Of a DNA stretch of 64,000 bases, positions 15,503 through 25,485 are shown in pieces. Every line of letters begins with the position of its first letter. The stretch's first letter is position 1. The DNA is taken from NCBI GenBank assembly GCA_003244205.1, contig QHBW01000060.1, positions 1 through 64,000 of the forward strand. Reading direction: 5' to 3'. The translations under genes were made by a program, and so were the position numbers. The stretch comes from Solirubrobacterales bacterium (lineage in GTDB: Bacteria > Actinomycetota > Thermoleophilia > Solirubrobacterales > Solirubrobacteraceae). The notes beneath the pieces were generated by a model, which was given only the letters and a program-made list of their open reading frames with translations, did not search any database and was not told the origin of the DNA.

Positions 15503-17299
15503 CTACCCAGTGCCCGCCTTCTTGTCCAGGTGAGTGCTGAGCCACAGCTCGAGCAGTGCCACCTGCCAGAGCTTGTTGCCAGTCAGCGTCGTGAGATGCT
15601 CGTTGGGCGCCGCGAGCAGGCTCTCCACGTACTCGGGCTCGAACAGCGCGCGGTGCGCTAGCCGCTCTGGGGTCAGCACGTCGCGCACGAGTGCGAGCAC
15701 CTCACCTTCGAGGTGCGACAGCGCCGGCACCGGGAAGTATCCCTTTGGGCGGTCGATGATCGCGTCGGGGAGCAGTCCTCGGGAGATGCGCTTGAGGACT
15801 CCCTTGCCGCCCTCTGCGAGCTTGAGCTCCGGTGGACAACCCGCCGCCAGCTCGACCAGTTCATGATCGAGGAACGGAGTGCGCGCTTCAAGTCCCCACG
15901 CCATCGTCATGTTGTCCACGCGCTTGACCGGGTCTTCGACGAGCATCACTTCTTCATCGAGCCGCAGCGCTCGGTCCACCGGGGTAGTTGCGCCTGGAGC
16001 GGCGAAGTGGCGCTCCACGAGGTCGCGCGACGGATCGCAGGCGAGGCGCATGCGAGCATGCACCATCGCGCTGGACTCGGTGTGTGAGCGGTCCACGAAC
16101 TCGTCGATGTACGCGTCGACGCCACTTCCGCCAACACCGGCGAGCGGCGGATACCAGGAGTAGCCCGCGAAGACCTCGTCGGCGCCCTGGCCCGACTGCA
16201 CGACTTTGATGTGGCGGGAGACCTCTTCGCTGAGCAAGTAAAAGGCAACGCAGTCGTGAGAGACCATCGGCTCGCTCATCGCCTCGACGGCGGCGCCGAT
16301 CGCAGGCAGCAACCGCGCTTCGTCCACCTCGATGCGTTCGTGCACGGTGTCGAATTCCGCCGCCACGAGGTCCGAGTAGTGAAACTCGTTGCCGTGTCGG
16401 CCGCCCGCGTCGGCAAAGCCGATCGAGAATGTCGCCAGCCCCCGCTGACCCTCGCCGGCGAGCAGTGCGACGATCAAGCTCGAATCGAGCCCGCCGGAGA
16501 GCAGCACGCCGACGGGGACATCGGCGACCATCCGGCGTTGCACAGCAGTTCGTAATGCCGCGAGCGTCACTCTTTCCCAGTCGACGTCAGTGGTGGACGT
16601 GTCGCGCGCGAAACTCGGCGACCAGTAACGGCGCTCACTGCACGCGCCGTCGGGCTCGATCGTGAGCAGTGTTGCGGGCGCGAGCTTGCGAACGCCGCGC
16701 AGGATCGTCAGCGGTGCCGGTACGACCGAGTGGAAGCTGAGGTAATGATGAAGCGCGATGGGGTCGATCTCCGTGTCGATGCCGCCGCCCCCGGCGAGCA
16801 GCGCCGGCAGGGTGGACGCGAAGCGCAGTGCACCGCCGCCATCGACCTCGGCGAAATACAGCGGCTTGATCCCGAGCCGGTCACGGCCCAGCACGACCCG
16901 TCCCGATGCTGGCTCGACGATCGCGAAGGCGAACATGCCGATCAGATGCTCGACAAAGCGCGCCGGCCCCCAGTGGTGAAAGGCCTTGACGATTACCTCG
17001 GTATCCGATGCTGAGTAAAACGTGTAGCCGACACTGATCAGCTCGTCCCGGAGCTCGTGATGGTTGTAGATGCAGCCATTGAAGGCGATCACGAGGCCCA
17101 GCTCGGGGTCGACCAGCGGCTGGTCGCCGCGTGCCGAGAGGTCGATGATCTTCAGGCGCCGGTGTACGAGCGCAACACCGGAGTCGTGCCACTCGCCCTC
17201 ACCGTCGGGGCCGCGGGGCGCGAGCACCGCTGCGAGCCGGGCAAGCGCCTCCAAATCGGGCGCACGCGCCCACGCGACCTCACCGCCGAGCCCGCACAT
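15503..17299 (-). CDS. Class-II glutamine amidotransferase, N-acetylglutaminylglutamine amidotransferase type
   Basis: A 598-residue asparagine-synthase-family enzyme. Cys2 (MCGLGG) is the glutaminase nucleophile, the Ntn domain covers ~1-210, and the synthetase domain has the PP-loop LLSGGLDSS (~270) and GQGADEVFAGY. Segments such as FNGCIYNHHELRDEL, LHHYLSFHSVVPAP, MSEPMVSHDCVAFYLLSEEV and DPVKRVDNMTMAWGLEARTPFLD are characteristic of the branch that amidates the osmoprotectant dipeptide N-acetylglutaminylglutamine in Pseudomonas/Sinorhizobium, rather than of plain AsnB. It is last in the cluster; its ATG overlaps the preceding stop by one base (TGATG). The exact product here is unproven because the usual GNAT/ATP-grasp partner is absent. 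Confidence 0.88.
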   Translation of the reverse strand: MCGLGGEVAWARAPDLEALARLAAVLAPRGPDGEGEWHDSGVALVHRRLKIIDLSARGDQPLVDPELGLVIAFNGCIYNHHELRDELISVGYTFYSASDTEVIVKAFHHWGPARFVEHLIGMFAFAIVEPASGRVVLGRDRLGIKPLYFAEVDGGGALRFASTLPALLAGGGGIDTEIDPIALHHYLSFHSVVPAPLTILRGVRKLAPATLLTIEPDGACSERRYWSPSFARDTSTTDVDWERVTLAALRTAVQRRMVADVPVGVLLSGGLDSSLIVALLAGEGQRGLATFSIGFADAGGRHGNEFHYSDLVAAEFDTVHERIEVDEARLLPAIGAAVEAMSEPMVSHDCVAFYLLSEEVSRHIKVVQSGQGADEVFAGYSWYPPLAGVGGSGVDAYIDEFVDRSHTESSAMVHARMRLACDPSRDLVERHFAAPGATTPVDRALRLDEEVMLVEDPVKRVDNMTMAWGLEARTPFLDHELVELAAGCPPELKLAEGGKGVLKRISRGLLPDAIIDRPKGYFPVPALSHLEGEVLALVRDVLTPERLAHRALFEPEYVESLLAAPNEHLTTLTGNKLWQVALLELWLSTHLDKKAGTG

Positions 17300-18438
17300 C
17301 AGAAGGCGTCGGCGAGGACCGCGACGAGGCCATCAAGGCCCGCGCCCTGGCGGGCGCATTGGCGCTGGCGCTCGGTCCCCGGGCAGCGGCTCAGCACGCG
17401 CGCACTCTCTAGCTCCTCACGGCAGCCCAGCTTGTCGGCATGCGGTGCACAGGCGTCGAGCGTCATCGAGAGCAGATCGTGCGCTGAGACGTGGCTCTCC
17501 AGGCGGGGATCGAGGAAGTGCGCCGCCATGCCGTCGCGTGCGGCCAGGAAGCGATTCTCGGCGAGCAACTCGGGAGTGCCTTGCGGCGGGACTGCGGCTG
17601 CCTTGCCATCGATCTCCATGTGTACGAGTGACTGCACCAAGGCCACCAGCGCAGCGGAGTCCTCGACCGTGATCTGAGCGTCCATGATGCGTACCTCGAC
17701 AGTGCCCCAGCGCGGCTGTAGACGAACGTCCCACCACAAGAACGTCGGCTCGGGAAAGGCACCGCAGCGCAGCAGTACGTCGATGCTCTCGACATAGTCG
17801 CCGTAGTCGTTGAACGCCCGCGGGAGCCCCACACGCGGAAAGGCGCCGAACATCGGCGTACGCGTGGACGCGAGCCCCGTCTCGCGTCCCTGCCAGAAGG
17901 GGGAGTTCGCCGACAGTGCCAGCAGCAGGGGGAGATGGGAGCGCAGTCCGTTCATCGCGCGCATCGCGTCCTCGGGATCGAGGACAGCAACGTGGACATG
18001 CAGCGCGAACGTCGGCTCCCGGCGCGCCAGCTCGCGCAGCGATTCGTAGAGCAGCTGATAGCGCTCGCCACCCGAAATCCGTGACTCCTGCCACACGGTC
18101 GTCGGGTGCATGCCGGCGGCAGCCGCGCGCAGCCCCCGGTCATCGAGCTCGGCACGCAGCTCGCCTCGTAGCGCAGCGAGCTCTGCGATCGCGGCGGGCA
18201 CATCGGTGTGCACGCCGGTGCGCAACTCCAGCGCCGAGCCATGCGTCTCGGCGGCGACATGCTCGAGGAGGTGGGGGGCGAGCGTGGGGAGGATGCTGTC
18301 GATCCAGGGAGCGAGAGCGAACGTGCTGGCGTGCAGCAGCATCACCTCCTCTTCGATCCCGACGGTCCATGCTGGACGCTCGCTTGGAGACGGCCACCGG
18401 CCCCAGGACGGGGGAACACGCCCGGCAGGCGGGCTCAT
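17299..18438 (-). CDS. YbdK-type carboxylate-amine ligase (GCS2 family)
   Basis: A 379-residue member of the glutamate-cysteine ligase type-2 superfamily. The N-terminal GIEEEVMLL strand holds the acidic metal/ATP ligands, followed by LELRTGVHTDV, a HVHVAVLDPEDAMRAMN segment, NSPFWQGRETGLASTR and WWDVRLQPRWGTVEVRIMDAQ. Family members ligate an amino group to a γ-carboxylate with ATP. In this cluster it may supply the peptide-bond step before amidation. It begins 3 nt after the amidohydrolase stop and ends one base into the next start, so the cluster is tightly coupled. The first ~24 residues are variable; a later start is possible. Confidence 0.88.
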   Translation of the reverse strand: MSPPAGRVPPSWGRWPSPSERPAWTVGIEEEVMLLHASTFALAPWIDSILPTLAPHLLEHVAAETHGSALELRTGVHTDVPAAIAELAALRGELRAELDDRGLRAAAAGMHPTTVWQESRISGGERYQLLYESLRELARREPTFALHVHVAVLDPEDAMRAMNGLRSHLPLLLALSANSPFWQGRETGLASTRTPMFGAFPRVGLPRAFNDYGDYVESIDVLLRCGAFPEPTFLWWDVRLQPRWGTVEVRIMDAQITVEDSAALVALVQSLVHMEIDGKAAAVPPQGTPELLAENRFLAARDGMAAHFLDPRLESHVSAHDLLSMTLDACAPHADKLGCREELESARVLSRCPGTERQRQCARQGAGLDGLVAVLADAF

Positions 18439-18441
18439 GGT

Positions 18442-19275
18442 TCAGGCCGCGCGCCGCGTTGGTCCTGCGCGCGGCGCTGGGCGCTCGCGTTCGCGCTCTT
18501 CGCAGACCGTCACCAGGCGCCGGAAGAGGGCGAGCTGCGCAGGGTTGTCGACGAGCGTCTCGGCGTGCCACTGGACCCCGAGCAGCAGCGATTTTCCCCA
18601 TCCCTCGATGGCCTCGACCACGCCGTCATCCGCCCACGCGACGGCCCGCAGGCCTTTTCCGAGCAGGTCGACGCCCTGATGGTGAAATGAGTTGACCGCG
18701 AGCCGGCGCGTACCCAGCACGGCGGCGACCCTGCTGCGGGGGGCGATCCGGACCTCGTGCGTGGGCTCCGTCCCCGGCTGGCGTTGGCGGTGCGCGATCG
18801 AGCCGTCGGTGATCTCCGGCAGGTGCTGGTGGAGGGTGCCGCCGCGAGCAACGTTGAGCGCCTGCGCCCCGCGGCAGATGCCGAGAATCGGCAGACCGCG
18901 AGCGTCGGCCTCGCGTGCGAGCTGCACCTCGAAGACGTCGAGCTGCGGCTCAGTGTCGCCCAGCTCAGGGTGAGCCGCGCGCCCGTAGGCTCCGGGATCG
19001 AGGTCTGGCCCACCGGAGAGCAGGACGCCGCTGAGACGATCCAGCAGCGGCGAGATGCGGTCGAGCTCCAGCGGCGGGAGCACTACAGGCAGTCCCCCCG
19101 CGCGCTCGACTGCTTGCAGATAGGGAAGCCCGAGCGCCATCTCGACCCGCGCCGGCTCGCCGTGGCGGCGGCGGCGCACCTGCTTGGCGAGACGCAGCTC
19201 GGAGGTGGTGACGCCGATCAGTGCAGCAAGCCCACTCTGGAGCGGCAGGACACGCCTCTTGGGATCCATGGTCAT
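18442..19275 (-). CDS. γ-Glutamyl-GABA hydrolase-like peptidase C26 (PuuD family)
   Basis: A 277-residue class-I glutamine amidotransferase-like hydrolase. The nucleophile Cys134 lies in LGICRGAQALN and the His/Glu pair in GVQWHAET (His237, Glu239); LSGGPDLDP and NSFHHQ are also family-typical. Relatives cleave γ-glutamyl amide bonds (for example γ-Glu-GABA). Lying between two ligases, it could recycle or trim γ-glutamyl intermediates, or act as a salvage hydrolase; this is inferred from context. Its ATG overlaps the stop of the ATP-grasp gene (ATGA). Confidence 0.88.
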   Translation of the reverse strand: MTMDPKRRVLPLQSGLAALIGVTTSELRLAKQVRRRRHGEPARVEMALGLPYLQAVERAGGLPVVLPPLELDRISPLLDRLSGVLLSGGPDLDPGAYGRAAHPELGDTEPQLDVFEVQLAREADARGLPILGICRGAQALNVARGGTLHQHLPEITDGSIAHRQRQPGTEPTHEVRIAPRSRVAAVLGTRRLAVNSFHHQGVDLLGKGLRAVAWADDGVVEAIEGWGKSLLLGVQWHAETLVDNPAQLALFRRLVTVCEERERERPAPRAGPTRRAA

Positions 19276-20636
19276 GCGAGCACCCAGGTGTCCTTGGCAC
19301 CCCCATTCTGGGATGAGTTGACGACCAGCGAGCCGCGCTCGAGCGCGACGCGCGTGAGGCCACCGGGGAAGACTTGGATGTTTTCGCCGGTGGCAAAGGT
19401 GAACGGGCGCAGGTCGACGTGGCGCGGCTCGAGCTCATCGCCACAGACGGTGGGTTGGCGCGAGAGCCGGATCGTCTCCTGCGCGACGAAGCGTTCCGGT
19501 GTCGCTGTCAGCTGCTGTGAGACCGTCGCAAGCGCGTCCTCGTCGGCGCGCGGGCCGACCACGACGCCGACGCCGCCGTGTCCGCTGCGCGGCTTGATCA
19601 CCAGTTCGCCGAGACGCTCCAGCACCATCGCGAGCACCCCGGGCTGCGAGGGGTCGTGCGTCGGTACCGATGCAAGCAGGGGCTCTTCGCCGAGGTAGAA
19701 GCGCACCATCTCCTCGACGTAGGCGTGCACGAGCTTGTCGTCGGCGACTCCCGTCCCGAACGCGTTGACACACGCCAGCGTCTGCGCCTCGAGCGGACCG
19801 AGCAGCACGTCGGCGAGCGTAGTGCGAGCTCCGGCGGCATCGAAGAGACAGTCCTCATTTGTGCGGCGATAGACCACGTCGACGGCAAGGAGTCGACCAT
19901 CGGTGCGGGCGTAGAGCCGCTTGGCGCGGACACTGAGCTCGCCTATCGCGACCAGCGGCAGACCGAGCCGGCGAGCGATCGCGCTGTGCTCGTAGAAGGC
20001 AGAATTGGACGGCCCGTCGGTCAGCACGACGATCACAGGTTGCTCGCCGGCGTCCGGCGCCGCCGCCCCCCGTAGCGCCTCGCCGAGCAGAGCATAAGCC
20101 GGCTCCAGGGAGCGCACGCGGATCCCCTCGGGGACCGAGAGGTAGCCACTGAGGGCTTCGCGGGCGGCGACCGCATAGGCGATCCCCGACGGGGTCCGAA
20201 CGTTGTCCTCGAGCACCACGAACGGACCCTCGCCATCGCGAACGAGATCGAGACCAGCGATCGTGATCCATCGCACCGGCGCGGGGGGCAGCTCCACCAG
20301 CCGCGGCTCGTAGAACTCGGCGCTTGCGATCGTCGACCACGGCACCAGGCCCGCACTGACGATCCGGCGCTCGCCGTAGACGTCGGCGACGAAGCGATCG
20401 AGTGCTTCGGCGCGCTGCGCCAGCCCGGCGGCGAGCGCGTCCCATTCGTCGCGCCCGATGAGACGCGGAACGGGGTCGACGACGAAGCTCTCCGTCTCCC
20501 CATCGTCGGCGGTGCCGAAGGTGACCTGGCGCTCGCGCAGGTGGTCGGACAGCGCGCGTGAAAGGGCGCGCAGATCCATCTCGTCGAGCGCAGCGAGCAC
20601 GGAGCCGGTCGCCCGCGCGGATTCCGTCACGGCCAT
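19272..20636 (-). CDS. Circularly permuted type-2 ATP-grasp ligase
   Basis: About 454 residues, with features of the circularly permuted ATP-grasp family: LDPIP-like VVDPVPRLI, EDNVRTPSGIAYA, LTDGPSNSAFYEH, VYRRTNEDCLFD, NAFGTGVADDK, the lysine/glycine loop VIKPRSGHGGVGVVVG, and the C-terminus VVNSSQNGGAKDTWVLA. Such enzymes form amide bonds between a carboxylate and an amine, but their substrates are mostly unknown and they usually pair with an alpha-E protein and a transglutaminase, neither present here. ATG 20636 is preferred; ATG 20702 has a better ribosome site (GAAGG) but adds codons unlike the rest. It starts ~98 nt after tatC. Confidence 0.85.
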   Translation of the reverse strand: MAVTESARATGSVLAALDEMDLRALSRALSDHLRERQVTFGTADDGETESFVVDPVPRLIGRDEWDALAAGLAQRAEALDRFVADVYGERRIVSAGLVPWSTIASAEFYEPRLVELPPAPVRWITIAGLDLVRDGEGPFVVLEDNVRTPSGIAYAVAAREALSGYLSVPEGIRVRSLEPAYALLGEALRGAAAPDAGEQPVIVVLTDGPSNSAFYEHSAIARRLGLPLVAIGELSVRAKRLYARTDGRLLAVDVVYRRTNEDCLFDAAGARTTLADVLLGPLEAQTLACVNAFGTGVADDKLVHAYVEEMVRFYLGEEPLLASVPTHDPSQPGVLAMVLERLGELVIKPRSGHGGVGVVVGPRADEDALATVSQQLTATPERFVAQETIRLSRQPTVCGDELEPRHVDLRPFTFATGENIQVFPGGLTRVALERGSLVVNSSQNGGAKDTWVLA

Positions 20637-20734
20637 CGTCAGATTCCAGCTTCGGAAACGAGCCGGCGCATTCGCCCTAGGGCCAAAGAAAAGACCGGAC
20701 ATTGGGCCTTCGCGGCGGGGCGGCCCGGTCGATG

Positions 20735-21703
20735 TTATGACCGCTCGACGCGCGCTCGACGTTGCTCGCGTCGCTCGACCAGCGACGCGAGCAGCAGGCT
20801 CGCCTCGAAGAGCAGGTACAACGGTACCGTCTCGAGCAGAAGTGTAACCGCGTCGCCAGGGAGTATCGCCGCGAGCGCGCCGCACGCGAGCATCGCGTAG
20901 CGCCGGTTGTGTCGCAGTTGGCGGGTGGTGACAATTCCCGCCCGGGTGACGGCGAGAATGCCGATCGGTACTTGGAAGAGGAAGCCCATTGCGAGCAGCG
21001 TCATCGCCGCGAAGTGGTAGTACTGGCCGGCTTGGACGAGGACGTTGAACTGGTCGCTGTTGAAGTTCTGAAAGAAGCGCACGGCTGCCGGCAAGACGAC
21101 GAAGTAGCCGAATAGCACCCCTGCCGCGAACAGGAAGGGGATCGCAAGCGTCAGCGGCCTGACTAACCGCGCCTGCTTCGGGCTAAACGCGGGCAGCAGG
21201 AAGGCGTAGAGCTCGAACAGCACCAGCGGCAGTGCGAGGACGAGAGCGAAGAGCAGCGACACTCCCATCGTGGTGGTAAAGGGTTCGCCGATGCCGAGCG
21301 TCACCGGCTTGTCGCCCTGCGGGGGCGCGGAGAGTCGTGAGATGTCGCCCTGAAGCTGTGGAGCGACAGCCTGCAGCGAAGTGCGGGTCGCTGCGCTAGC
21401 GCCGCTGCCCGGGCGATCTAGGACGCTGATGACACGTTGGAGATCAACGGCGAGCGAGCGCGTGTTCTGCTGAACCAGATAAGTGGCGCCCAGCGGGCCG
21501 CCCCCGTGTTTTACCTGCTTTTGCGTCTGGGTTGCGAGGGGCTTGTTGACGATGCGCAGCAGCGCGTGGTTCTGCCACAGGCAAAATCCGAACGCGACAG
21601 CGATCGCCGCCACTGAGATGATGAGGCGCGTGCGCAGCTCATCCAGGTGATCGACGATGCTAAGGCGATCCTCGTGGCCAATTCGGCCAACGGCAACGGC
21701 CAT
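20735..21703 (-). CDS. tatC: Twin-arginine translocase subunit TatC with enlarged first external loop
   Basis: A 322-residue polytopic protein with six predicted helices. The cytoplasmic HLDELR motif (19-24) precedes TM1 (~27-43), and the GEPFTTTMGVSLLFAL segment (~139-154) leads into TM2. TatC recognises twin-arginine signal peptides. The first external loop (residues ~44-145) is about 60 residues longer than usual, with an insertion around 57-130 that looks helical and polar. The gene follows tatA by 26 nt. The C-terminus after the last helix is highly charged (ERREQRRARVER). Confidence 0.95.
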   Translation of the reverse strand: MAVAVGRIGHEDRLSIVDHLDELRTRLIISVAAIAVAFGFCLWQNHALLRIVNKPLATQTQKQVKHGGGPLGATYLVQQNTRSLAVDLQRVISVLDRPGSGASAATRTSLQAVAPQLQGDISRLSAPPQGDKPVTLGIGEPFTTTMGVSLLFALVLALPLVLFELYAFLLPAFSPKQARLVRPLTLAIPFLFAAGVLFGYFVVLPAAVRFFQNFNSDQFNVLVQAGQYYHFAAMTLLAMGFLFQVPIGILAVTRAGIVTTRQLRHNRRYAMLACGALAAILPGDAVTLLLETVPLYLLFEASLLLASLVERREQRRARVERS

Positions 21704-21729: not shown

Positions 21730-21981
21730 CTACGCCTGCGGGGCGCGGGCGCCGATTACGGTGGACGGAGCCGGTGCGGGCGCCGTCGCGTCCTCAGCGG
21801 TTGCGGCCAGCTGCTCGGGCTCGCCCGCGGAGGGGTGGCCCTCGCCGCTGAGCGAGTCCTTGAAGCCACGCAGTCCGCTACCGAGCGAGCGGCCCATTTC
21901 GGGCAGTCGCTTGGCACCGAAGACCACGAGCAGCAAGATCAGCAGGAACGCGATGTGAATGGGATTATCGAGACCCAGCAT
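21730..21981 (-). CDS. tatA: Sec-independent translocase pore protein TatA
   Basis: An 83-residue TatA/E protein: a short extracytoplasmic N-terminus, one membrane helix (IHIAFLLILLLVVFGAKRLPEM), the conserved FGAKRLPE hinge, the amphipathic helix GRSLGSGLRGFKDSL, and an Ala/Pro-rich tail. The frame opens at 22029, but ATG 21981 (MLGLDNPIHIAF) fits the family and has a GAGAG ribosome site upstream. No separate tatB is in the window, consistent with minimal TatAC systems of Gram-positives, though other copies may exist elsewhere. Confidence 0.93.
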   Translation of the reverse strand: MLGLDNPIHIAFLLILLLVVFGAKRLPEMGRSLGSGLRGFKDSLSGEGHPSAGEPEQLAATAEDATAPAPAPSTVIGARAPQA

Positions 21982-22134: not shown

Positions 22135-22764
22135 CTACTTGATCAGCGGGCCGGCGGCGGCGAGGACTTGCTTCTTCGTCAATGGCTTGTCGAATCCCGC
22201 CGTCGGCGTCGGGCTCTTGCCGAGCAGCAGGTTGATCGCTGCGGCGTGGCGTGCCTCGACCTGCACAATCGAGCCCGCCGCTGCAAGCACCATCTTGCTC
22301 GAGATCGACGGTGCCGCGCCGTTGTACGCACCAACGCCGGTGTTTTCGAGCACCGAGGCCAAGGCCAGGAAGCTCGACTGCGAGGTCGCGGGGAAGGAGA
22401 ACTTCGGCTTCTTCACTGGCGTCCCCCCGAGCTGCTTGATCGCCGCCTCGAGCGCACTCACGTGGGCGGCTTCCTCTTCGCCGAACTGGGTCGCGTAGGC
22501 CTTCGCTTGGCCGCTGAGCCCAACTTGCTTACCCTTGACGGTGTAGAAGTCGGCCTCTAGGTATTCGAGCGTGAGCGCGAAGTTCAGGATGTCGACATCG
22601 CCTCCGCCCGTCTGCGCGAACGCCTGGGAAACGAACGGTCCCACCGCGGCCGTGCCGTAGACCGCGCCGGCGGCGAGCGCTCCGCGCAGGATGAAGGCCC
22701 CGCGCGTCACGCCATGCACCTCGCATGCGGCGAGCTGGGGGTTGGCTAGATCATGATTGGTCAT
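22135..22764 (-). CDS. Ferritin-like exported protein 1
   Basis: 209 residues. An N-terminal export signal (TRGAFILRGALAAGAVYGTAAVG...AQ, ~20-50) precedes a ferritin-like four-helix domain of the Ferritin_2 type. Likely diiron ligands sit in LTLEYLEADFY (~65-74), EEEAAHVSAL (~95-105) and VEARHAAAI (~172-181). The signal keeps the spacing of a Tat motif, but the second arginine is Gly. It shares obvious similarity with the genes at 22801 and 23889. Ribosome site GAGAGGAA lies upstream of the ATG. Probable role: metal or peroxide handling at the cell surface, or desiccation-related; unproven. Confidence 0.85.
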   Translation of the reverse strand: MTNHDLANPQLAACEVHGVTRGAFILRGALAAGAVYGTAAVGPFVSQAFAQTGGGDVDILNFALTLEYLEADFYTVKGKQVGLSGQAKAYATQFGEEEAAHVSALEAAIKQLGGTPVKKPKFSFPATSQSSFLALASVLENTGVGAYNGAAPSISSKMVLAAAGSIVQVEARHAAAINLLLGKSPTPTAGFDKPLTKKQVLAAAGPLIK

Positions 22765-22800
22765 CTGGTGAATTCCTCTCGATTGAGGCAGCTGGCTGGC

Positions 22801-23517
22801 TCAGCCCAAGAACGGCTTGACCGCCGCCAGGACCGTCGGGATATCTGCCGGCTTGGCGAACGCGCCATCAGGAACGACAGACTTGTGGACGAGCGTGCCG
22901 AGCGTCGCTGCGTGACGCGCTTCGACGGAGTGGATCGAAAGTGCGGCGGCAAGCACCGCCTTGCTCTGAATGTTGCCGGCCTGGCCGAGATACGCGGCCG
23001 CGCCGAGGTTTTCCACGGTGTAAGCGAGCATCGCCACTTGACTGGCGCTCGAGACAGGGAACTTGCCGTTCGGCTTGGCCGCCGGCTTGCCGCCAGCGCC
23101 GGTGATCGCCGCCTTCAGCGCGGTCACGTGTGACTGCTCTTGGCTACCGAACTCCTTCAGCAGCGAACCGACCTTGCCGGAAAACAGACCAGCCTTCACC
23201 ACCTTGTTGTAGAACTCCGTCTCCAGATACTCGAGCGTCAGCGCGTAGTTCAAGATCCCCAAGTCGCCGCTCCCAAACGGGTTCGCCCCGGATGTGGACG
23301 GCGGGGCGGTGGTAGCCGGCGCGGGCGCCGTCGAGCTCGACGACGAGCTCGACGAACTACTACTGCCGCACGCAGCCAGCACGAACGCGCCGAAGCTCGC
23401 GGCCCCCGCGCTCCCAGCCATCTTCAAAAACCGCTTGCGCTCGACGTCGTCGCGCACAAGATGCTCGACGATCCCCGCCGGCTGCGGCGCGGATTCCTCT
23501 CCGGAATGAGTCGACAT
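22801..23517 (-). CDS. Ferritin-like lipoprotein 2
   Basis: 238 residues. A charged N-region (ERKRFLKMAG, ~26-35) and hydrophobic segment end in the lipobox LAAC (~47-50), followed by an 11-residue serine run and an Ala/Pro/Thr linker, then a ferritin-like domain. Likely metal ligands lie in LTLEYLETEFY, GSQEQSHVTAL and SVEARHAATL. The Arg-Lys pair resembles a variant Tat motif. The long linker suggests the domain is tethered away from the membrane. A strong GGAGG ribosome site lies 8 nt from the ATG, suggesting high expression. It is a paralogue of its two neighbours, 36 nt upstream of ferritin-like gene 1. Confidence 0.87.
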   Translation of the reverse strand: MSTHSGEESAPQPAGIVEHLVRDDVERKRFLKMAGSAGAASFGAFVLAACGSSSSSSSSSSSTAPAPATTAPPSTSGANPFGSGDLGILNYALTLEYLETEFYNKVVKAGLFSGKVGSLLKEFGSQEQSHVTALKAAITGAGGKPAAKPNGKFPVSSASQVAMLAYTVENLGAAAYLGQAGNIQSKAVLAAALSIHSVEARHAATLGTLVHKSVVPDGAFAKPADIPTVLAAVKPFLG

Positions 23518-23888
23518 CTACAACACCTCCGATTTGCGATTGAGAACCGACGCTGGTCGCAGCGTGTGCCCTCGGATCCCGCCGAGCCGTAGCGACCCGA
23601 ACGGACCTGCCTGTTCCCCTATTGCGGAGCTGATCGACTTTCGGATCACTCTCGTCCGTTTCTGTTGCCGCTGGCGCAACGCTTCGACCTTCATCCGCCG
23701 CCCGCACAGCGCCCAGACACGGTCCTTGGTCACCCCGCGGTCCCGAGCAGAAAGCTCGGGAAATTCGGCGCTTCGCGAATAGTCCGCGGTCGCGGTGCGA
23801 GCTCTCTCTGAGGCCGGTGAGCCGCACTTGAGCGCGCGAGGCCGCTCCGGGGAGTTCGGCACTCGCGCGCAGCAAGCGTGATGCCTGG
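23518..23888. other. Gene-free spacer between ferritin-like genes 2 and 3
   Basis: 371 bases with no convincing coding frame; short ORFs here lack any family resemblance. It holds a perfect 7-bp hairpin (CCCGAGC-AGAAA-GCTCGGG) at 23742-23760 without an adjacent T-run, and the ribosome site of gene 2 near 23526-23530. It presumably contains the promoter of ferritin-like genes 2 and 1, but no clear -35/-10 pair was identified. Confidence 0.5.
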
Positions 23889-24581
23889 CTAGCCGACGAT
23901 GAACTTCGTCTTCTTCACGCCGTCCAGCACCTTGTCCGCGCTGAGCGGTTTGTCAAACGGCGAGGGAGCGATCGGCAGACCGGTGATCGATGCGATCGCA
24001 CCGGTGTGACGGGCCTCGATTGTGACGATCGACAGCGCGGTCAGCAGGATGGGCTTCGACTTGATGTTGCCCGCTTGCCCGCTGTAGGCACCTACGCCGG
24101 TCTTCTCGAGCGTATAGGCGGTCTGCTGGAACGTAGCCAGGTCCGTCACAGCTGCGCCGAAGTTGAACTTCGGCTTCTTGAGGGCCTTGCTGCCCAGCGC
24201 CGTCTTCAGCGCCCTGACATGCGCATCCTCGTCCTTCCTGACGACCTTGAGGAAGGTAGTTGTCTTGCCGGTGCTGTCGCCTGCGCCGACGTTGTTGTGA
24301 TCGGCTTGGTCATAGAACGCCATCTCCAGGTACTCGAGCGTGAGCGCGAAGCGAAGGATGGCGATGTCGCCATGGCCGAACGTCTTCGCGGGCGGACGGC
24401 CTGCTGCCATGGCCGCCGGCGCGGCGAGGGCGCCCAGAACGGCGCCGCTGCCCGCGACGCCCGCTACGCCGACGCCGGCCTTCTTGAGGAAGCTGAGGCG
24501 GGTGTCCTGATAAGCCTCCTCGGCGCCCTCGCGAACGGCTCCGTCGACATCGATCTGTCCAAGGTGGAGCTCGGGATTCAT
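23889..24581 (-). CDS. Ferritin-like exported protein 3
   Basis: 230 residues from ATG 24581, which has a strong AAGGAG ribosome site 8 nt upstream; the in-frame extension to 24791 is discarded. A leader (TRLSFLKKAGVGVAGVAG...AAPAAMAAG, ~26-62) keeps the FLK part of a Tat motif but has Arg-Leu instead of Arg-Arg. The ferritin-like domain follows, with likely metal ligands in LTLEYLEMAFY, KDEDAHVRAL and TIEARHTGAI. It is the most upstream of three paralogues and may carry its own promoter, given the 371-nt spacer downstream. Confidence 0.87.
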   Translation of the reverse strand: MNPELHLGQIDVDGAVREGAEEAYQDTRLSFLKKAGVGVAGVAGSGAVLGALAAPAAMAAGRPPAKTFGHGDIAILRFALTLEYLEMAFYDQADHNNVGAGDSTGKTTTFLKVVRKDEDAHVRALKTALGSKALKKPKFNFGAAVTDLATFQQTAYTLEKTGVGAYSGQAGNIKSKPILLTALSIVTIEARHTGAIASITGLPIAPSPFDKPLSADKVLDGVKKTKFIVG

Positions 24582-25077: not shown

Positions 25078-25341
25078 TTGTTGGCGCGCGGCCGCTCGCT
25101 CCGCGCTGCGATCCCAGAGTCTGGATCTCTAGGAGGACCGATCGCGTTCTACGCCGGCCTACGCCGCGCCGAGATCTACCGCCTTGACTGGCAGGACGTC
25201 GACCTCGATGGCCTGTCGCTCGTTGTGCGGCGTTCTAAGAGCGACGCTGGCACCGGGCGACGCGATGAGCGCTCAAACGCGCCCGTTGCATACAGAGTGC
25301 ATACATTTGCCACGCCCATCGACGTCGATAGCCGTCCATAG
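25078..25341 (+). pseudogene. Tyrosine recombinase (phage-type integrase) remnant
   Basis: Only the central part of a tyrosine recombinase catalytic domain survives: AFYAGLRRAEIYRLDWQDVDL (residues ~23-43) includes the first catalytic arginine region, followed by the SKSDAGTGRR segment typical of actinophage-type integrases. The N-terminal core-binding domain and the downstream H-x-x-R and Tyr motifs are missing. The frame ends at 25341, 70 nt before tRNA-Met, the usual kind of target for such integrases. A short direct repeat (TGCATAC twice, around 25288-25306) lies in the decayed part. Confidence 0.7.
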
Positions 25342-25411
25342 ACATAGTTAGCGACGGCGCAGCCGATCTCGCATCACCAGTCACGGGGCGGGATTCGGCG
25401 CTCTAGAGCGA

Positions 25412-25485
25412 TGCCGGAGGAGGGACTCGAACCCCCGACACGCGGATTATGATTCCGCTGCTCTAACCGACTGAGCTACTCCGGC
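25412..25485 (-). tRNA. tRNA-Met (CAT), elongator type
   Basis: A complete 74-nt cloverleaf on the minus strand: acceptor GCCGGAG/CTCCGGC, D arm GCTC/GAGC, anticodon stem GCGGA/TCCGC around loop ATCATAA (anticodon CAT), T loop TTCGAGT. CCA is not encoded. The body (GCGGAATCATAATCCGC, variable loop GTGTC) fits actinobacterial elongator tRNA-Met better than tRNA-Ile2 or initiator tRNA. An integrase remnant lies beside its 3' end. Confidence 0.93.

Follow-up and report, generated by a model that had tools for sequence, protein, structure and literature searches.

How could a twin-arginine translocation (Tat) system recognise proteins whose signals carry a single arginine? This question is raised by a cluster on the minus strand of contig QHBW01000060.1 of a Solirubrobacterales bacterium (assembly GCA_003244205.1), of which the first 64,000 nucleotides, here called the window, were analysed. 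The cluster comprises three genes encoding ferritin-like exported proteins (F3, F2 and F1) followed by tatA and tatC, in a genome of 2.66 Mb (100 contigs, completeness 92.9%, contamination 5.0%). The leaders of the three proteins lack the second arginine of the Tat motif, and the product of the adjoining tatC, TatC2, lacks the glutamate (Glu103 in Escherichia coli numbering) that pairs with this arginine. From the comparison of sequences, we consider it somewhat more probable than otherwise that TatA2-TatC2 is a second, minimal Tat translocon dedicated to the three one-arginine proteins. The wider proposal is more tentative and is offered as a real possibility rather than as the expected outcome: that a one-arginine Tat pathway exists in the Solirubrobacterales, in which captured TatC copies have lost Glu103 repeatedly, read R-x-x-F and form an export line separate from the general one.

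Ferritin-like proteins and their leaders

The genes F1 (22135..22764, 209 amino acids), F2 (22801..23517, 238 amino acids) and F3 (23889..24581, 230 amino acids from the ATG at 24581), all on the minus strand, encode proteins that match Ferritin_2 (PF13668) at 149.4, 133.8 and 128 bits respectively (cut-off 24.7) and whose domains share 43-49% identity in pairs. The original prediction had described three tandem ferritin-like paralogues beside tatAC, an arrangement borne out by the positions of the open reading frames and by the Pfam matches to Ferritin_2, TatC and TatA_B_E. The ribosome sites that it named (GAGAGG, GGAGG and AAGGAG, the last before the ATG of F3) and its leader motifs TRGAFIL, ERKRFLK and TRLSFLK, with the second arginine replaced by Gly, Lys and Leu, also read as claimed. 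In F1 the motif (22687..22707, minus strand, counted from the ATG) lies in the region VTRGAFILRG of a leader that includes HGVTRGAFILRG and an alanine-rich cleavage region, and that is supported by the leaders of orthologues. The F2 leader, DVERKRFLKMAG...LAAC, holds the motif (23422..23442, minus strand) within VERKRFLKMAG and is the only one of the three with a lipobox, by which F2 is classed as a lipoprotein. In F3 the motif (24483..24503, minus strand) is part of DTRLSFLKKAG. A "TatB_1" match on this last leader was set aside, as it reached 22 bits against a cut-off of 100.

The consecutive arginines (RR) of the canonical S/T-R-R-x-F-L-K are therefore absent from all three leaders, which read RG, RK and RL. 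The remainder of the motif (S/T, the first arginine R1, F, L and K) and a moderately hydrophobic core are present in leaders of this class, as judged by column counts and by the grand average of hydropathy (GRAVY), with the exceptions that F2 has Glu ahead of R1 and that F1 has Ile and Leu replacing Leu and Lys. The two other Ferritin_2 genes of the genome, on contig C73, carry RR leaders (SRRRFLR and SRREL).

A search for homologues of F1, F2 and F3 covered 146 genomes of the family; the leaders come from the best loci of each search, up to 30 of which were read, and from the neighbourhoods of TatC genes. This sample favours close relatives of the window and, since the motif search itself demands an arginine, R1 is found in every leader read. 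The leader set comprises 141 sequences; eight were dropped, namely four cut open reading frames of the family and four from outside it (two of them RR by eye). The second arginine (R2) is missing, with the layout kept, in 39/42 F1-type and in 29/29 F3-type leaders, the three RR leaders of F1 type being that of L235 and two from remote proteins (24-27% identity). All 71 F1- and F3-type leaders have R-x-x-[F/L] ahead of a hydrophobic core, and only three have Arg at the second place. The F2-type leaders read Arg-Lys in 23 cases out of 32, RR in seven and Arg-Ala in two. The Phe of the motif is kept in 35/42 F1-type, 22/29 F3-type (57/71 for these two together) and 32/32 F2-type leaders. In a phylum-wide sample outside the family, RR was found in 31 of the 36 leaders and RK in two, while two of the other three belong to the same class; in leaders from outside the class, Arg occupies the second place in 31/34. 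On these alignments, the missing second arginine within a retained layout is more than a chance feature, being conserved across the leaders of the family.

The proteins that keep R-x-x-F/L are mostly about 45-80% identical to the window ferritins, and leaders of the class have long n-regions with acidic residues. Mean GRAVY values of the one-arginine leaders are 0.91 and 0.76, against 1.04 for their RR relatives. As the hydrophobicity of these leaders is not raised, there is no indication of a Sec-like core or of the hydrophobic bypass known from E. coli (PMC5539426), and the latter idea found no support.

Each type also has a conserved stretch before the motif: D-x-D-G-A-x-x-E in F3, I-x-V-x-G-M-T-R in F1 and L-V-R-D-D in F2. 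Such conservation is unusual for an n-region, and the stretch could bind a chaperone or the translocon. In genus g2, the F1-type leaders (L201, L203, L204 and L206) have Glu at the R2 place (TREAFLM, TREAFLI, TRESFLL); one TatC was found there, Glu103-bearing or unread.

The second TatC of the genome

The contacts made by a Tat signal were described in a 2026 cryo-electron microscopy structure of E. coli TatBC with MdoD (PMC13323110). The first arginine is bonded via a water with E15 and is stacked beneath F94. The second is salt-bridged to E103 and packed against Y100, and the signal Phe occupies a pocket of F94, L9, H12 and L13; a Glu103 mutant serves in that work as an inactive control. The RR pair and TatC E103 have been described as almost invariant, F94 and E103 being called almost completely so, and E103K is inactivating but is rescued by more hydrophobic signals (PMC5539426).

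Upstream of tatC2 (20735..21703, minus strand, 322 amino acids) lies the tatA of the cluster, encoding TatA2 (21730..21981, minus strand, 83 amino acids; TatA_B_E, 51.6 bits), for which the ATG at 21981 is most likely the start rather than that of a longer TTG frame. TatC2 passes both PF00902 (174.8 against 25.1 bits) and TIGR00945 (157.3 against 132.7). When it was aligned with the E. coli and Aquifex TatC of the PDB (9dzz and 4b4a), Gln177 (codon CAG, 21173..21175, minus strand) fell opposite Glu103 with no gap, and MAFFT alignments gave the same position. TatC2 keeps H12, L13, E15 (as Glu22, 21638..21640, minus strand) and F94, which serve the Phe and the first arginine of the signal, and has lost Glu103. 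The genome has another tatC, on contig C80, which reads AFSPSERRV and keeps Glu103 where the window copy reads AFSPKQARL. In addition, no acid is present in the window TatC2 between positions 94 and 108.

From the family, 100 stretches surrounding TatC matches were taken, one of them without tatC; the alignment comprised 100 TatC, that of the window included. The window TatC2 falls within a clade of 20 (support 1.0) in which H12, L13, E15, R17, F94, P97 and Y126 are each found in 20/20. Position 103 in this clade is Q in 12 sequences, A in two, and R, D, L, I, M and E in one each, whereas Glu103 is present in 79 of the 80 TatC outside it. Among the sites with a conservation of 85% or more in those 80, TatC2 has essentially lost just three, namely 54, 77 and 103; positions 54 and 77 have mostly one replacement residue, 103 is varied, and 54 adjoins a variable loop insertion. 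The ratio of nonsynonymous to synonymous substitution rates (dN/dS) was 0.09-0.32 in 10 pairs of TatC2 and 0.08-0.70 in seven other pairs, and by this measure purifying selection acts on TatC2. In 16/20 TatC2 loci, the tatC gene has its own tatA close upstream.

Relative to E. coli and to the majority of TatC in the order's other families, the TatC of family f1 have their first periplasmic loop extended by a long insertion of tens of residues. TatC2 of the g14 type have an acid at position 100 in L085, L090, L099, L102, L108, L113, L114 and L115, and Asp in L086 and L112.

Association of TatC without Glu103 with ferritin genes

The family set was extended with stretches from further genomes with several tatC genes, giving 125 aligned TatC. 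Relatives of the window TatC2 and multi-copy genomes are over-represented in this sample, but its members were not chosen on position 103 or, L347 excepted, on ferritins. A linked ferritin was defined as a Ferritin_2 gene scoring 60 bits or more within 4 kb, so that weak ferritin-like neighbours (L129, L137, L366, L367, L112 and L363) counted as no ferritin, and L164, which has no tatC, was left out.

Of the 125 TatC, 26 are without Glu103. Fourteen of these 26 have a ferritin within 4 kb, as against only two of the 99 that bear Glu103 (Fisher 7.6e-10, a value that ignores descent). On the tree there are about six independent losses of Glu103 and one regain, the losses being those of the family TatC2 clade, L347 (Glu to Asp), L359/L360 (f2), L361/L362 (f3), L363 (f4) and L133. 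Three or four of these are ferritin-linked (the family TatC2 clade, L347, L359/L360 and L361). For losses scattered at random in proportion to branch length, the chance that four or more of the six would fall in ferritin-linked lineages is 8e-5 to 0.005. With the f3 loss assigned instead to the stem that also leads to the unlinked L362, the chance for three or more of the six is 0.002 to 0.045. The TatC without Glu103 have 28 ferritins beside them, and the 27 leaders that could be read have neither Arg nor Lys at R2 in 18 cases, Lys in seven and Arg in two. All told, about six lineages have a tatC joined to ferritins of this kind, and the order ferritin-tatA-tatC recurs in L361, of another family. 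The three ferritins beside the Glu103-bearing TatC of L118 and L364 are also without RR.

Most genomes with a Glu103-less TatC were found to hold another that bears it; in G224 and G228 only the Glu103-less copy was found, in assemblies 66% and 63% complete. A third TatC lineage, common to two families of the order, was observed in L347 (genome G231), L163 (G170) and L349 (G022); in G231 the copy carries Asp103 and is accompanied by two neighbouring ferritins.

Proposed export route and alternatives

In the reading that we favour, the ferritin signals would have lost R2 first and throughout the family, and the ferritin cluster would then have captured a tatAC copy. Once Glu103 was left without R2 as a partner, selection on it may have been relaxed. 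TatAC2 would recognise R1 and Phe, probably aided by the conserved stretch before the motif, and would export folded, metal-loaded ferritin-like proteins, of which F2 would be anchored as a lipoprotein. The signals would remain Tat signals that use only the first Arg, Phe and Leu. They are read as Tat signals because the motif is kept except for R2, because their cores show low hydrophobicity and because tatC and such ferritins occur joined.

Several observations weigh against this proposal, beginning with the absence of RR itself from the leaders. The nearest relative of the window TatC2, in L077, has Glu at position 103. An acid is present at position 100 in most g14-type TatC2 or at 102 in several of g15, and where the acid at 103 is gone such a displaced residue may stand in as the arginine partner. 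Twelve of the 26 Glu103-less TatC have no strong ferritin within 4 kb (five of them were seen with less than 2 kb on one side), two have a ferritin with RR (L347 with Asp and L361 with Gln), and two ferritin-linked TatC, in L118 and L364, keep Glu103. A complete triplet in G155 has no tatC adjoining. Furthermore, one-arginine F1 and F3 ferritins are widespread where a single, Glu103-bearing TatC was found, and some of these genomes have Glu at the R2 place (TREAFLM). TatC2 is thus not required for such leaders to exist, and strict co-evolution, with R2 lost only where Glu103 is lost, was rejected. To judge from its spread, the loss of R2 in F1 and F3 would be derived, old in the class and older than the TatC2 of the window, which contradicts the simplest lock-and-key story of a TatC2 that enabled it. 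The loss of Glu103 is therefore best understood as resulting from dedication to one-arginine cargo, not as causing it.

These same single-TatC genomes, together with the G155 triplet, are what would be expected if the ferritins were ordinary substrates of TatAC1, the main system, whose recognition of this class would tolerate a missing R2, while TatC2 was partly redundant, its Glu103 drifting and its linkage a matter of co-regulation only. We regard this as unlikely, although it deserves attention. The seven other residues of the signal pocket and core are found in 20/20 TatC2 and its dN/dS is as low as that of TatC1, so that TatC2 is not decaying, and the idea of a decay of this copy found no support. 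Moreover, multi-copy TatC of other families mostly keep Glu103 (21 of 26 visible places, in 13 multi-copy genomes), from which it follows that duplication alone does not cause the loss; this explanation was discarded. It might also be that TatC2 works in mixed complexes, where TatC1 would give Glu103 for recognition and TatC2 would tune activity or assembly, as most genomes with a Glu103-less copy also have a Glu103-bearing one. The ferritin linkage and the upstream tatA point instead to a self-contained unit, and G224 and G228 show the Glu103-less copy only, incomplete as these genomes are, and we think mixed complexes improbable.

The original prediction had offered two explanations for its leaders. 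One was a former Tat family moved to Sec; F2 would then be a Sec lipoprotein and the motif a relic. The missing second arginine, the F2 lipobox and the presence of a hydrophobic core would agree with this. It is nevertheless disfavoured and has in our opinion little chance of being correct, since R-x-x-F/L is kept in the leaders of proteins as diverged as those described above, the n-regions are long and acidic, the hydrophobic regions are no more hydrophobic than in RR relatives, and tatC has been joined to these genes in several lineages. The other was a local Tat system with relaxed signal recognition. An adjacent second TatC without Glu103 and its repeated linkage to ferritins strengthen this suggestion, without proving it; the loss of R2 itself is not local, as F1- and F3-type ferritins are without it throughout the family.

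If the dedicated TatAC2 exists as proposed, it would supply a counterpart from nature to the recently solved contact between Glu103 and the second arginine. It would also mean that Tat specificity can be re-set, that an orthogonal Tat channel is on offer and that predictors based on RR overlook a class of Tat cargo.

Cargo and genomic surroundings

The best sequence match of F1 and F2 in the PDB is the tardigrade Ferritin_2 protein RvY_06210. Two proteins of the same Pfam family as F1-F3, RvFeMP-1 of tardigrades and DRB0118 of Deinococcus radiodurans, are reported to be metabolite phosphatases linked to desiccation tolerance (PMC11616004). Aligned with RvFeMP-1, F2 retains E, ExxH, E, ExxH, and it differs in having Glu at the place of Asp162 and Gly at the Asp135 ligand. 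The cargo is probably a set of envelope proteins with two metals (E, ExxH, E, ExxH), from the group to which RvFeMP-1 and DRB0118 belong, and a role of this cargo in the envelope under dry stress may be supposed.

Directly downstream of tatC2 (15503-20885, minus strand) there is a row of circularly permuted ATP-grasp, peptidase C26, GCS2 and AsnB genes that looks like a peptide- or glutamyl-tailoring set; no such row was found beside the other scanned TatC loci of the family. Just beyond F3 (25078-25485), a tyrosine recombinase fragment (Phage_integrase, 20 bits, under the cut-off of 27.1) adjoins a tRNA-Met gene, and the GC content is slightly reduced across 21-25 kb of the window. The tatAC-ferritin cassette may have arrived here with an integrative element; no tRNA genes were found in 14 related loci.

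Comparison with known Tat systems

Searches of the literature (open-licence PMC papers) gave no entry that, as listed, describes a natural TatC without Glu103 together with one-arginine cargo. In the Bacilli, TatAdCd is paired with PhoD, and the substrates of the second Tat systems carry RR, unlike the leaders of this locus. The specialised TatCd and TatCy systems, as presented in PMC3827258, are nevertheless similar to the locus in that a second TatAC stands beside its own substrate gene. A natural Tat signal short of one arginine is likewise known from TtrB of Enterobacteriaceae, which has a KR motif and is described in PMC6708511 as the only known native cargo with KR. TtrB has Lys for the first arginine and occurs in hosts with ordinary Tat, whereas in the class of this locus the second arginine is lost, the replacing residues are varied and whole protein types are concerned. 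The E. coli mutants E103K and F94D combined with hydrophobic signals indicate that transport is possible without the Glu103 contact or the RR pair (PMC5539426); these are laboratory mutants that need higher hydrophobicity, while the locus has a natural copy and signals of low hydrophobicity. With E. coli TatBC and its RR signals (PMC13323110) the locus shares the TatC fold, H12, E15, F94 and the Thr/Ser-Arg-x-x-Phe-Leu layout. It differs from them in being without both Glu103 and the second arginine, and in that only a tatA-type gene is seen beside tatC2.
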